Shown: positions 35,626-44,465 of the stretch, piece after piece
How the letters are laid out: every line of letters starts with the position of its first letter
How positions within the stretch are numbered: position 1 is the stretch's first letter
Origin: Thermobaculum terrenum ATCC BAA-798
Lineage (GTDB): Bacteria > Chloroflexota > Chloroflexia > Thermobaculales > Thermobaculaceae
Length of the DNA stretch: 64,000 bases
Assembly: GCF_000025005.1 (NCBI RefSeq)
Contig: NC_013525.1
Location: 682,001-746,000 of the forward strand
Reading direction: 5' to 3'
The notes under the pieces: generated by a model
What the model was told of the DNA's origin: nothing
Databases searched by the model: none
The model's input: the letters and a program-made list of their open reading frames with translations, nothing else
Position numbers and translations under genes: made by a program

Positions 35626-35925
35626 TTACTCGGATTGTTGTTGTGGCTTACTGCTCTTATAAGAAGGGCCGTACAGCATTTGTCGAGCCTCTTCGCCCAC
35701 ACCTGCCGCGTCGCAGTCCAACAGGGTGGAGAAGATGGCTCTCTTGAGTGCGCTTACCTTGTAGTCCTCAATGTTGCCCGAATCTATCTGTTCCCTAAGC
35801 AGGCAAAGTCTGTGCAATCTATCCAGGAAGAATAGCTGCCAACGGTCATAAGTCTTGACCTTGGGCTGCTGCCTCTGGGTCTCGCTGGCCTGGTTTTCCT
35901 TGACTTCCCTTATCTCACTCTGGTT
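35626..35925 (-). CDS. small hypothetical helical protein
   Basis: A 99-residue soluble protein. A Gln/Glu-rich N-terminal third precedes a conserved-looking helical core, TYDRWQLFFLDRLHRLCLLR, then GNIEDYKVSALKRAIFSTLLDCDAAG and a Gln/Ser-rich tail. The start at 35925 has GGAG upstream; an ATG 23 codons earlier is less likely because the extra residues are Tyr/Arg/Gly noise. No family assigned. It is monocistronic, with its own terminator, and diverges from the DUF1015 gene. Confidence 0.6.
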   Translation of the reverse strand, partial: NQSEIREVKENQASETQRQQPKVKTYDRWQLFFLDRLHRLCLLREQIDSGNIEDYKVSALKRAIFSTLLDCDAAGVGEEARQMLYGPSYKSSKPQQQSE

Positions 35926-36123
35926 CATAACTCCAACTCCATTTCCGGGCCTGCGGCCTACTTGGCTTTCATAATAAGTATAACAGCTTGGCAATTCAAG
36001 ACATAGTACCTACACAGGTAGTTACCAAGAGTGTATAGCAGCTAGCATGCCAAAGGTTGCGACTGGACATCAGCTCTTTGCGATTACTACAATTGACCTG
36101 AGAAACAACTAGAGGTAGTCCCT

Positions 36124-37434
36124 TTGGCAGAGCTGAGTCCGATTCTCCCATTTATATATAACGCCAAATTGGTTGGAGATGTTTCTTCTGTAATTACTCC
36201 ACCTTATGATGTGATTAGCGCCGAAGAGTGTGCTCTTTACAGGGCAAGGCACCCTTATAGCGCCATACACATAGAGTTGCCCTCTGCCCGCAGTAATTCT
36301 AACCCCTACGAGGAAGCCGCTAAGCTCGTTCAGGAATGGGTGGCTTCTGGGGTTTTACAGCCGTTTCCTGAACCTGCTATGTTTGTACATCAGCAGACTT
36401 TTACCTGCCACGGCAAGAACTACACTCGCACTGCGTTGGTAGCAGGCGTTCGCCTGGAGCCTTGGGAAGCCGGCGTGGTGATCCCTCACGAGCGTACTTT
36501 TGCCGGCCCTAAGAAGGACAGGCTTGAACTCCTGAGGGCCACCCATGTAGCTCCCAGCTCTATATTTGGACTTTATGAGCAGAAGCCGCCAGTAGCTGAG
36601 GTAATAGCCTCGGTGGTATCTGCGGGTGAACCCCTGATTGTAGCCTTTGAACCTGATGTTGAGCATAGAGTCTGGGCAATTACCGATGCTAAGCAACTGG
36701 CTACAATCCATAGTGCTATGAGAGACTCCAGGATCTACATAGCAGATGGCCATCACCGCTATGAAACAGCGCTGGCCTACAGAGATGAGCGTAGGCTTCA
36801 GGATGGTAACTACGATAATGCTGCCTATAACTATGTTGCTATGAGCCTGGTTGCTTTCGATGATCCTGGCCTCGTAGTGCTGCCTACACACAGACTTATA
36901 AAAAATCTGGCTCCGACTCTGGTGGACGAACTTCCTGGTAGAGCAGGTAAGTTCTTTAGTGTTGATAACGTTGAGTTGATTTCGACCAGTGAGGGAGCTG
37001 TACAACAGATACTTCGTAATGACTGGGATTATGCTTTCTTAATATACGGCCGTCGAGGAGCTTGGCTTTTCACGGCAGACCACGAGGTTGCTGCTTATCT
37101 TCCAGAGGATAGGTCCGAAGCCTGGAAGAAGCTGGACTTGGCCGTTCTGCACGAGCTAGTGTTCCGGAAATTACTGGATATGGACCTTGGAAATATTGAA
37201 GAATACGTGCAATACACTAGAAGCATTGAGTATGCAGTTGCTGCAGTTAATGATGGTGATTTCCAATTGGCTGCATTTGTCCGACCTACAGGGGTCGATC
37301 AACTGAGGGCAGTAGCTGATGCTGGTGACAGGATGCCTCATAAGAGCACTTACTTCTATCCCAAGTTCCCAGCAGGGTTGATAATCAATAGGCTGGATGT
37401 GCGTTTGCCGCGAATAGCGGAGGTTATGCGTTAA
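36124..37434 (+). CDS. DUF1015 family protein (SerK/SbnI-like kinase family)
   Basis: A 436-residue soluble protein with the full DUF1015 pattern: ITPPYDVISAEE at the start, IPHERTFAGPKKDRLELLRAT, and YIADGHHRYETALAYRDE in the middle. The family includes ADP- or ATP-dependent free-serine kinases (SerK of Thermococcus, SbnI of Staphylococcus) in which the HERT and DGHHRYE segments form the active site; that activity is a family inference. The start is TTG with GAGGT upstream. The next gene starts inside its stop codon (TAATG), so it heads the transcript that continues into the his operon. Confidence 0.85.
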   Translation: MAELSPILPFIYNAKLVGDVSSVITPPYDVISAEECALYRARHPYSAIHIELPSARSNSNPYEEAAKLVQEWVASGVLQPFPEPAMFVHQQTFTCHGKNYTRTALVAGVRLEPWEAGVVIPHERTFAGPKKDRLELLRATHVAPSSIFGLYEQKPPVAEVIASVVSAGEPLIVAFEPDVEHRVWAITDAKQLATIHSAMRDSRIYIADGHHRYETALAYRDERRLQDGNYDNAAYNYVAMSLVAFDDPGLVVLPTHRLIKNLAPTLVDELPGRAGKFFSVDNVELISTSEGAVQQILRNDWDYAFLIYGRRGAWLFTADHEVAAYLPEDRSEAWKKLDLAVLHELVFRKLLDMDLGNIEEYVQYTRSIEYAVAAVNDGDFQLAAFVRPTGVDQLRAVADAGDRMPHKSTYFYPKFPAGLIINRLDVRLPRIAEVMR

Positions 37435-37535
37435 TGGGCAAGGGTAGAAGAAACTGGTCTCAGATAACCTTTGTCATCTTGGTGGTTTTGATTGTGGTCT
37501 CTCTGCTACTACAAACATGCGGTCCCGCTTTGTAA
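37434..37535 (+). CDS. 33-residue single-pass membrane microprotein
   Basis: ATG overlaps the previous stop (TAATG) and the frame encodes a basic head (MGKGRRNWSQ), one hydrophobic helix (ITFVILVVLIVVSLLL) and a short Cys-containing tail (QTCGPAL). The positive-inside rule puts the N-terminus in the cytoplasm. The stop codon leads straight into AAGGAGG, the ribosome site of hisG, leaving no room for another function of these bases. Such a tiny gene is easily missed. Codon phasing, coupling and the clean amphipathic layout support it; the role is unknown. Confidence 0.65.
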   Translation: MGKGRRNWSQITFVILVVLIVVSLLLQTCGPAL

Positions 37536-37546
37536 GGAGGTAGGCT

Positions 37547-38425
37547 TTGGGTACCGGCGAAGAGCGCAGGCTTCGGCTGGCTATGCAGAGGCAGGGTAGG
37601 TTGACGGAAGGAACTACCTCGCTCCTCCGAGGTATAGGGCTGCAATTTGAGAGCTATCAACAACGCCTGTTGACTCCTTGCCGCAATTTCCCACTTGATA
37701 TACTTTTCGGTCGCGATGATGATATCCCTGAGTATGTAGCCGATGGCACCGTAGATCTAGGTATTGTCGGCCGCAACATGATAGTCGAGAAAGAGGCTAG
37801 GGTTGAAGAGCTCCTTCCTTTGGGATTTGGATACTGCTCCTTGGTAGTAGCTGTGCCCAATGATTCCAATATTGAGTCTCCTGAACAACTGCATGGTAAA
37901 AGGGTTGCTACCTCCTATCCGAACTCTACCAAGCGATACTTTCAGAACTTGGGAGTAGAGGTGGAATTGGTAGTGCTATCTGGGTCGGTAGAGGTAGCAC
38001 CTTCGCTCGGAATAGCCTCGGCTATCGTAGACATAAGTGCCACCGGTAGCACTCTGGTACTAAATGACCTAAGGACTATAGCCACCGTTTTGGAATCCGA
38101 GGCCGTGTTGATAGCTAATCCTGAGACCGTTGAGTCATCTGATGTAAAACCCAACATAGACAGGCTGCTTCTCAGGATCAAGAGCCTACTTGCCGCCAAG
38201 CAATACAAATACGTGATGATGAACGCCCCTAGATGGGCACTGCCTGCGATCCGTAAGATCACACCGGGACTTAAATCTCCAACGGTTGTACCGCTGGCTG
38301 ATCCAGATTGGGTGGCGGTACACACCGTTATCCAAGAGAGCGAGTTTTGGGAAGTTATCGAGAAACTAAGGGAAGCTGGAGCTTCCGAGATACTGGTCAA
38401 TCCTATAGAAAAGCTTTTACTCTAA
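37547..38425 (+). CDS. hisG: ATP phosphoribosyltransferase, long form
   Basis: First enzyme of histidine synthesis: ATP plus PRPP gives phosphoribosyl-ATP. The 292-residue length, with a C-terminal regulatory domain from about residue 215 (VMMNAPRWALPAIRKITPGL), identifies the long, histidine-inhibited form that needs no HisZ. Catalytic parts include FGRDDDIPEYVADGTVDLGIVG, RVATSYPNSTKRYF and the PRPP loop SAIVDISATGSTL. The start is TTG, 6 bases after AAGGAGG. Head of hisGDCBHAFI. Confidence 0.94.
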   Translation: MGTGEERRLRLAMQRQGRLTEGTTSLLRGIGLQFESYQQRLLTPCRNFPLDILFGRDDDIPEYVADGTVDLGIVGRNMIVEKEARVEELLPLGFGYCSLVVAVPNDSNIESPEQLHGKRVATSYPNSTKRYFQNLGVEVELVVLSGSVEVAPSLGIASAIVDISATGSTLVLNDLRTIATVLESEAVLIANPETVESSDVKPNIDRLLLRIKSLLAAKQYKYVMMNAPRWALPAIRKITPGLKSPTVVPLADPDWVAVHTVIQESEFWEVIEKLREAGASEILVNPIEKLLL

Positions 38426-38442: not shown

Positions 38443-39744
38443 TTGAACAGCGTAGCTCCCGTACGCACTATAAGGCTAGCAGATCTATCACCTGAAGAGC
38501 GTCGAAGGCTAACACATAGATCTGGGGCCATTTCTATGGATGTGACTTCTGTCGTACGTCAGATAGTGGAAGATGTGCGCCAGAAGGGTGATGAGTCAGT
38601 TCGGGAGTATACAGAGCGCTTTGATGGGGTAAAACTTGATTCCCTAGAGGTGCCCCGCGTAGAGATCGAAACTGCTTTGGATCGTATAGACCAGCATCTG
38701 GCAGAGGCTATGTCCATCGCCGCATCTAATATCAGGGCGTTTCATAGTGCTCAGATACATCCTGAACCTGTAGTAGAGACTTCACCGGGAGTAAAGGTGT
38801 GGCGTGTGTGGCGCCCTATTGAGAGGGTAGGGGTGTATGTGCCGGGTGGTGGAGCTAGATATCCGTCTACCGTCCTGATGCACGCTGTACCAGCATCGGT
38901 AGCAGGCTGTAGTGAGATAGTATTGTGCACACCCCCAGGACCTGATGGCAAGGTGCCAGAAGCGACTTTAGCGGCGGCAGCGCTTTCGGGCGTCACCAGG
39001 GTGTTCAGTATCGGTGGTGCGCAGGCTATAGCTGCTATGGCATACGGTACTCAAACCATACCGCCAGTTCAGAAGATCTTTGGACCAGGTAATGTGTACG
39101 TTACTGCTGCCAAGATGCTTGTGTTTGGTGATGTGGATATAGACAAGCCTGCGGGACCTTCTGAGCTAGTAATTATCGCGGATGATACGGCTGATCCTAG
39201 AGAGACGGCTGCGGATCTTATAGCGCAATCTGAGCATGCTCCTGATAACGCAAGCGTACTGGTTACCACCTCCGAAAGCCTCGCGGAGGCGGTACTATCT
39301 GAGCTGACGAGGCAGCTGGAAGACTTGCCAAATAGGGACAGGGTCATCAGCTCGTTCAGGAGCAATGGTTTCATCCTCCTAGTAGAGGATCTTGCTCAGG
39401 CTGTAGGGTTTGTCAATGAGTATGCTCCAGAACACCTTCAGATAGTTACTGTTTCTCCTAGAGAGATTCTGGAAGGTATCAATAACGCAGGGTCCATATT
39501 CCTCGGAAGGTACTCACCTGTTCCTGCCGGAGATTATGCGGTGGGTAGTAATCATGTGCTGCCCACCAGTGGGAGCGCACGCACATTTGGTCCTCTGTCG
39601 ACCGAGGAATTTGGTAAGTGGGTACAGGTGCAGGAGCTTACACAAGAAGGCTTAAGATCTATATCAAATGCTGTAACAGCTATGGCACGTGCTGAGAACC
39701 TGGAAGGACATGCTAGAGCTATTGAGGTGAGGTTTTCTGTCTGA
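38443..39744 (+). CDS. hisD: histidinol dehydrogenase
   Basis: HisD performs the last two oxidations, histidinol to histidine, with NAD and zinc. 433 residues from TTG 38443, which follows AGGAG by 7 bases; the frame is open 45 codons further, but that part lies within hisG. Motifs: [54 protein letters not shown] and the zinc residues in [11 protein letters not shown] and EYAPEHLQ. The stop overlaps the hisC start by one base. Confidence 0.95.
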
Positions 39745-42831: not shown

Positions 42832-43587
42832 ATGCTCACGAAGAGAGTAATACCTTGTATGGATGTGAAAGATGGTAAGGTGGTGAAGAACTACCAGTAC
42901 TTCACCCCTTTGCCGGATGCGGGAGACCCGGTAGAGTTAGCATCTATATACAACGCTCAAGGTGCAGACGAACTCATGTTTCTGGACATAACAGCCTCAG
43001 TGGAGGGCAGAAAACTCATAATCGACCTTGTCAACCGCACTGCAAACGAGATCTTCATACCGCTTACCGTTGCTGGTGGAATTTCTTCGGTAGAAGATAT
43101 GCACAGGGTCTTGCGAGCTGGTGCGGATAAGGTAGCTATAAACACTGCGGCAGCCTGGAATCCTGACCTCATCACGGCCGGTGCTGAGCGTTTTGGTAGC
43201 CAGTGCATAGTGGTGGCGATTGATGCCAAGAAAGAAACTGATGACTGGTATGTGTATACCCATGGCGGACGAAAACCCACAGGCAAAAGAGCTGTAGACT
43301 GGGCGCGTGAGGCTCAGGATAGAGGTGCGGGTGAGATCCTGCTGACTAGTATCGACCGTGACGGCACGGGAGAGGGCTACGATCTGGATCTACTTGACAT
43401 TGTTGCCTCTGCTGTTTCGATCCCAGTTATAGCTTCTGGTGGAGCATCAACTCCCGACCACTTTGTAGAAGCGATTCAGCATGGAGCAGACGCGGTACTG
43501 GCTGCATCTATGTTCCACTATGGTCACTATACCGTATCCCAGGCAAAAAAGAGGATGAGTGAATGCGGGATACCAGTAAGGCTGTAA
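42832..43587 (+). CDS. hisF: imidazole glycerol phosphate synthase, cyclase subunit
   Basis: HisF closes the imidazole ring, using ammonia channelled from HisH, and releases AICAR. 251 residues with [16 protein letters not shown] (catalytic Asp), [31 protein letters not shown], the second catalytic Asp in [15 protein letters not shown], and VIASGGAST. The HisI start lies 25 bases inside its end. Confidence 0.96.
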
Positions 43588-44465
43588 ATCTTGTTGATAT
43601 GCTCCAGTATGATGAGCATGGTCTACTACCGGTGGTAGTACAGGATGCTGCTACCCTCAAAGTGTTATTGGTAGCTTTTATGAACAGAGAGGCGCTAGAA
43701 CGCACCCTATCAACAGGTTTGGTGCATTTCTGGAGCCGCAGCAGGAAGAAAATTTGGCTTAAGGGCGAGACCTCGGGTAGAACTCTGCATGTCAGGGAGT
43801 TAAGGCCAAACTGCGAGCTAAACTCTCTTTTAATCCTAGTAGACCAGCGTTTGCCAGGGGCATGCCACACAGGTCATTTCTCCTGCTTCTATCGCCGTCT
43901 TGAGGATGGAGAACTCGTCGAGATCGAGCCGCCATTATTTGATCCTGAAGATGTATATTCTGACCTGTCTGTGCTGTTAGGAGCCTATGATTGGCTTAGT
44001 AGACAGCCTACCATAGATAGCTCGAGTACCTCCAAGATATTGCATGGTGCTGGGCCTGATCCTTGGGCTAGGTTACTGGAAGAGTGGCAAGAGCTTCTAG
44101 GTGTGCTCGAAGGTACTCATGTACACAAAGGCTACTATGAGGATGCTAAGTTAGAGGCCTACCAGGTGCTCTATTGGACTTGTCTATGCTACGTGCTCTT
44201 AGATGATCGTCCTTCAATTGAAGAGATCCATGGTGCTTTTATCGATTCTGAGAAACAGGAGGTTTCCCAGATAGAGCACCTCATTGCCATTGGTAACAAG
44301 GAACATAACAGAAAGAACAAATTACTAATTTATTGGCGTGCTCTGGGAACTGCATGTCGTTTGGCTGGGTTAGATCCTATGGAAGTAGTTAGATCTGATC
44401 TTCAAGATCTATTATCAAAGGATTACATGGCGGCTTTTATAGGTGAGGCTTCTGCCCCAAGATGA
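43563..44465 (+). CDS. hisI: divergent phosphoribosyl-AMP cyclohydrolase with HisE/MazG-like tail
   Basis: Residues 1-125 are His[18 protein letters not shown] and the zinc cysteines C84, C101 (GACHTG) and C108 (SCFYR) are in place. The metal motif normally written D-C-D-x-D reads N83-C84-E85-L86-N87, so all three aspartates are replaced. Residues about 165-235 look like a HisE/MazG all-helical pyrophosphohydrolase ([14 protein letters not shown], then [19 protein letters not shown] and SIEEIHGAF). Another 65 residues follow, ending in [20 protein letters not shown], which echoes the same helix. No separate hisE or hisI occurs in the operon. Activity as a bifunctional HisIE is inferred from position; loss of one activity is possible. 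Confidence 0.82.

Follow-up and report, generated by a model that had tools for sequence, protein, structure and literature searches.

The 33-codon frame lying between the DUF1015 gene and hisG in T. terrenum is almost certainly a real coding gene, and its product is probably a genuine, free-standing small membrane protein, with probably one membrane crossing, that appears to be undescribed. It fits the general kind of small single-helix membrane protein: a conserved short frame, one hydrophobic helix and a charge bias between the ends.

Layout of the locus

The window that we analysed is a stretch of 64,000 nucleotides, positions 682001-746000 of contig C1, in a genome of 3.10 Mb that comes in two contigs. 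The following parts of the window are referred to below:

36124..37434, + strand, DUF1015 gene, 436 aa (PF06245, E 9.8e-79)
37419..37423, + strand, GGAGG, likely ribosome site of the microprotein, within the 3' end of DUF1015 (sequence reading)
37434..37535, + strand, microprotein gene, 33 aa (frame, and homologues in five further genomes)
37535..37540, + strand, AGGAGG, ribosome site of hisG (sequence reading)
37547..38425, + strand, hisG with TTG start, including the HisG_C domain (TIGR00070, TIGR03455)
38443..39744, + strand, hisD (order kept in 6/6 family genomes that reach the locus)

The initial annotation had described a start codon that overlaps the upstream stop as TAATG, and its coordinates, frame and peptide are exact: the start ATG (37434-37436) shares 1 nt with the DUF1015 stop TAA (37432-37434), and the GGAGG lies 10 nt upstream of this ATG. 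It had also been noted that the stop of the microprotein leads straight into the ribosome site of hisG; the final base of this TAA (37533-37535) is indeed common to the AGGAGG, which is placed 6 nt ahead of the hisG TTG. Translation of 37434-37535 gives MGKGRRNWSQITFVILVVLIVVSLLLQTCGPAL, which is made up of a basic head (residues 1-10), a hydrophobic stretch (residues 11-26) and the tail QTCGPAL (residues 27-33). The six frames of the window contain 480 ORFs of 25-60 aa; ranked by their most hydrophobic 17 residues, the microprotein comes first (3.02), and a single runner-up reaches 2.8. In a single-sequence model (pLDDT 82.5), the predicted helix covers residues 8-29.

In a scan of 35900-37700, the sole terminator-like site falls before DUF1015, at 35947; on the + strand there is none in 36124-37700. 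The same region holds four promoter-like sites, compared to 1.7 (sd 1.4) in shuffles; the + strand has two of these, one ahead of DUF1015 (36064) and one within it (36354), and the scan found none between DUF1015 and hisG. From this distribution of predicted sites we infer that the microprotein would be placed in the first stretch of the his transcript.

Two other genes of the region deserve a comment in their own right. Upstream of DUF1015, a divergent gene (35626-35994) encodes a product of 122 aa, ..KTYDRWQLFFLDRLHRL.., that has no Pfam match; this gene adjoins DUF1015 in the five other family genomes too, with 49-58% identity. The hisI product (43563-44465, 300 aa) has a Pfam match confined to residues 37-110 (PRA-CH), and its C-terminal 190 residues, in which one might look for a HisE domain, have none at E <= 0.1.

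Conservation in the Thermobaculaceae

We looked for DUF1015 and hisG in 61 genomes, of which seven are from the family. The order DUF1015, microprotein, hisG, hisD is found in 6/7 family genomes, representing five genera; the locus is missing from the seventh, G006, because its contig ends within hisD (the match starts at residue 186, and there is no flank on that side). The initial annotation had proposed looking for the small frame in related genomes, and held that a lack of conservation there would speak against it; the frame is present in all six family genomes that contain the region. These frames are 33 to 43 codons long and all start within the DUF1015 stop, with an overlap of 4 nt in five genomes (ATGA in four, GTGA in one) and of 1 nt in T. 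terrenum. The view of a coupled membrane microprotein thus holds up across the family as far as its place and overlapping start are concerned.

All six likewise keep the three parts that had been read from the T. terrenum peptide: a head with basic residues, a hydrophobic helix and a tail with Cys. The head carries a net charge of +2 to +4 and the tail a charge of 0 in each peptide, the hydrophobic stretch spans 15-19 residues, and the distance from Pro to stop is 2 to 7 residues. Invariant are the initial M, the Cys and the Pro, the last two as Cys-x-Pro; the GTG start of G004 was counted as M in this alignment. Based on the positive-inside rule, we suggest that the topology is quite likely N-in/C-out, with the head in the cytosol and the Cys-x-Pro tail outside the cytoplasmic membrane.

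The presence of the frame in the family is more than chance would give. We considered any hydrophobic frame of 22-70 codons that starts between -60 and +150 nt from the DUF1015 stop, at 103 loci of which 2 were unusable and 101 were counted. Such a frame is found at 6/6 family loci vs 1/95 outside loci, which are not all independent because two pairs, L019/L023 and L021/L024, each represent fragments of one gene; the single outside match is an unrelated 69-aa frame. Likewise, no short hydrophobic frame of the microprotein type precedes hisG at the 12 nearest outside-family loci (L111-L122); two of them have hydrophobic frames, each about 150 aa long.

Tests of the coding frame

The coding frame was assessed on an aligned 24-codon block, whose BLOSUM score was compared to 2000 randomisations in which the same base changes are scattered over other places. 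Similarity in the microprotein frame is higher than in all 2000 randomisations, with z 18.3 for the six sequences and 16.3 without G001, a z that is not a probability because the six sequences share kinship. The other two forward frames fall under the null, and the reverse frame is slightly over it (z 2.1 and 1.6). With G001 left out, mismatch at codon positions 1, 2 and 3 is 0.56, 0.30 and 0.62; as codons for hydrophobic residues have a T in common at position 2, the low mismatch there has the look of a conserved membrane helix.

A synonymous-to-nonsynonymous analysis had been suggested as a further check. Its per-site counts give weak support, being either saturated or based on too few changes; the frame-aware substitution test is strong (z 16-18). 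The ratio pN/pS ranges from 0.41 to 0.99 over the 15 pairs, whose synonymous sites are close to saturation. Five of these pairs have pN above pS in the core block, and the nearest pair differs by 4 synonymous and 4 nonsynonymous changes.

Similar microproteins elsewhere in the Chloroflexota

Against Pfam and NCBIfam, the six family peptides reach the cut-off of no model; low-scoring matches to NF010228, CGP-CTERM, SNARE, MmpB, DUF4044 and others fell under their cut-offs and were discarded. Among the papers listed on DUF1015, COG4198, free serine kinase, hisG, T. terrenum, Prli42 and Chloroflexi small membrane proteins, we found no description of the microprotein; the frame may already carry a hypothetical-protein annotation in the deposited record.

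A search of the class (158 genomes) gave some match at E <= 1 in 145 genomes, which is the level of noise. Among the matches listed, at least three outside the family reach E <= 1e-3. They lie in open frames of 559 and 303 aa and in a frame of 44 aa that is interrupted by one stop; two of the three were ruled out for having no Cys-x-Pro. A search of the phylum (400 genomes) gave a match in 60 genomes at E <= 0.003. We read 18 of these loci outside the family: 16 are long frames with lipoprotein-like starts, and two are microproteins.

Stand-alone microproteins with a TC-x-P tail occur in two other Chloroflexota families:

L183, 4003-4095, minus strand, stand-alone TC-x-P microprotein
L165, 1242-1415, minus strand, stand-alone TC-x-P microprotein

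The one in genome G279 has 57 residues, the last of which are ..ILSTCAPVAGPP, and its neighbour is a divergent MscS-type channel gene; the one in G237 is a frame of 30 residues ending VLSTCLPALS, after a Band_7 gene. In both, Thr precedes the Cys. Neither DUF1015 nor hisG adjoins them, and hisG is on other contigs in these genomes. Among the short-frame matches read in relatives of the two (81 genomes each, largely one common set) there were no more TC-x-P microproteins, and no close relative of either genome was found to carry one.

Single-helix microproteins that have no Cys are also present in the phylum. In one family they lie between response-regulator and release-factor (prfA) genes. In two further families the gene that follows them encodes PG-binding and VanW domains; Pfam was run on one locus each for these neighbours. 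A profile built from eight Cys-less microproteins matched 48 of the 400 phylum genomes at E <= 0.001. We read 27 of the 30 Cys-less loci (three long-frame loci were left out, and five of the 27 had gone into the profile). At these 27 short-frame loci (L262-L289), the neighbours are a regulator and a release factor in 17, a regulator only in one, VanW-like in six, and none of these in three. The prfA- and VanW-linked microproteins resemble the family one in their basic head, in a Leu-Ser-x-x-Leu-like turn that ends the helix, and in their short tail; they differ from it in having no Cys-x-Pro and other neighbours.

The eight-sequence profile, which contains no family sequence, nonetheless has the family microprotein as its best match in G000 (E 0.0032), G001 (0.0092), G002 (9.4e-5) and G005 (0.012), and the TC-x-P look-alikes as its best match in G237 and G279. 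It found no match in G003 or G006; in G004 it picked up lipoprotein starts only and missed the microprotein. An hhalign comparison of the family alignment with the Cys-less alignment gives a probability of 95.6. This reverse profile search is partly circular because its eight members came from the family microprotein's own profile, and helix composition inflates scores between short helices such as these. A common origin of the family microprotein and the other Chloroflexota microproteins nevertheless seems likely, though short of proof, as judged from this partly circular comparison of short helices.

The DUF1015 neighbour

The DUF1015 protein has no match in the PDB by sequence. Its predicted structure (23 sequences, pLDDT 94.3) aligns with the free serine kinase SerK (5x0k) with Z 15.0 and rmsd 4.1 over 221 residues, within model residues 104-426; superposition by Foldseek is lower overall, with a TMq of 0.36. 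The nine leading fold matches comprise five SerK, three SbnI and one uncharacterised Pyrococcus entry; sulfiredoxin is a weaker match of the model. It is thus likely, going by the model, that DUF1015 has the SerK/SbnI fold; a shared fold does not show serine kinase activity. We take DUF1015 to be equivalent to COG4198. COG4198 genes are reported behind glycine riboswitches (PMC2211319), and SerK is assigned to the ParB-CTPase fold in a recent survey (PMC12704722).

Possible functions

We tentatively suggest that the basic head docks a cytosolic protein at the membrane, much as Prli42 does with RsbR; we would rate this as a fair way short of established, and slightly under an even chance. Prli42 tethers RsbR via basic residues of its cytosolic tail (PMC6614362). 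This Listeria stressosome miniprotein has about 30 residues, a basic cytosolic head, one helix and nearly no tail, as seen here, and it is the head of Prli42 that binds its partner. The heads are basic in 6/6 family peptides and comprise 10 to 17 residues; with the helix and tiny tail, this design is closest to Prli42, and binding here would be by analogy. Unlike Prli42, the family microprotein has a Cys-x-Pro tail and sits in a his operon setting. The Prli42 model NF033880 has no match at E <= 10 to any of the six family peptides, and its match to one look-alike from another family amounts to 18.6 bits, under the cut-off of 27.5.

For its synthesis, we propose that the microprotein would be translated by re-initiation on the DUF1015 message. 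As the start and stop codons overlap, its synthesis would be tied to that of DUF1015, and re-initiation on a housekeeping transcript would in turn supply a steady dose, which may be set by the his operon. The partner would more likely be a general one than DUF1015 or HisG because similar peptides adjoin different genes in other families; DUF1015 itself is an unlikely candidate for it. The initial annotation saw no known link to histidine, and we too found none; the look-alikes beside other genes make such a link less likely.

The fixed place of the gene in six genomes is equally expected from a function bound to its neighbours, which counts against docking of a general partner. In that case the microprotein would be a dedicated membrane partner that anchors or tunes DUF1015 (SerK-like) or HisG, as its overlap with the DUF1015 stop and its position before hisG, kept 6/6 over five genera, would suggest. 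We nonetheless consider this unlikely: 94 of the 95 outside DUF1015 loci are without a small hydrophobic frame and the remaining one has an unrelated frame, and the look-alikes elsewhere adjoin other genes.

The microprotein could also be a minimal lipoprotein, with the helix acting as a signal peptide and the Cys lipidated and cut, so that a lipid-anchored remnant of 5 to 10 residues is left. Its basic head, hydrophobic core and Cys followed by x-Pro are shared with Chloroflexota lipoprotein signal peptides, and 16/18 of the outside loci read from the phylum search turned out to be long lipoprotein-like starts. In the lipobox, however, Gly, Ala or Ser stands directly before the Cys. This residue is Ala in 15 and Ser in one of those 16 starts, and Ala in 12/12 family lipoproteins scored (30 loci, of which 14 were scored and L198 and L207 dropped as not being lipoprotein starts), whereas it is Thr in five and Leu in one of the six family microproteins and Thr in both look-alikes. 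The family microproteins are unlike Chloroflexota lipoproteins also in that just 4 to 9 residues follow the Cys. With Thr or Leu ahead of the Cys in 6/6, the microprotein departs from the lipobox rule for Lgt/LspA substrates, and we regard a lipoprotein as quite improbable.

If translation of the frame served mainly to pass ribosomes from DUF1015 to hisG, with the peptide itself secondary, the tight placement of start and stop in all six genomes would be accounted for; the hisG ribosome site lies at the microprotein's end in T. terrenum and probably in or near the last codons in the relatives, and it is covered by a predicted pairing. Such a role would need no conservation at the amino-acid level, as is seen here, and the predicted folding of the junction RNA is weaker than in shuffles (z +1.95); we thus think that a mere coupling frame has a poor chance of being the explanation.

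Known his leader peptides have a run of His codons and an attenuator hairpin before hisG, and a regulatory leader that controls hisG by arrest or attenuation is very improbable here, despite the short frame with its hydrophobic helix and invariant Cys-x-Pro right before a biosynthetic gene, since the six peptides have no His, there is no terminator-like site ahead of hisG and no Rfam match, the spacing between Pro and stop ranges from 2 to 7 residues, and the microprotein, unlike such leaders, is inside the transcript and has a conserved membrane helix.

Implications

Docking of a cytosolic partner through the basic head is the reading that we prefer, and it can be carried further, in a form that we hold to be rather doubtful. 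The Chloroflexota microproteins might constitute a phylum-wide, undescribed set of single-helix docking proteins of common origin that came to lie in various housekeeping operons, among them those of the release factor, of the VanW-like gene and of DUF1015-hisG, with the outside Cys-x-Pro tail gained in this family; the set would then be the Chloroflexota counterpart of Prli42. If this is true, these microproteins would serve as posts in the membrane to which a cytosolic complex is held and perhaps signals are passed.

In a lineage in which such genes are hardly catalogued, the locus provides a small membrane protein that is conserved and apparently undescribed, and DUF1015 gains a likely fold identity. 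With T. terrenum, a cultured organism is on hand for studying the expression, topology and partner of the microprotein, whose single-helix design recurs across the Chloroflexota beside unrelated genes.
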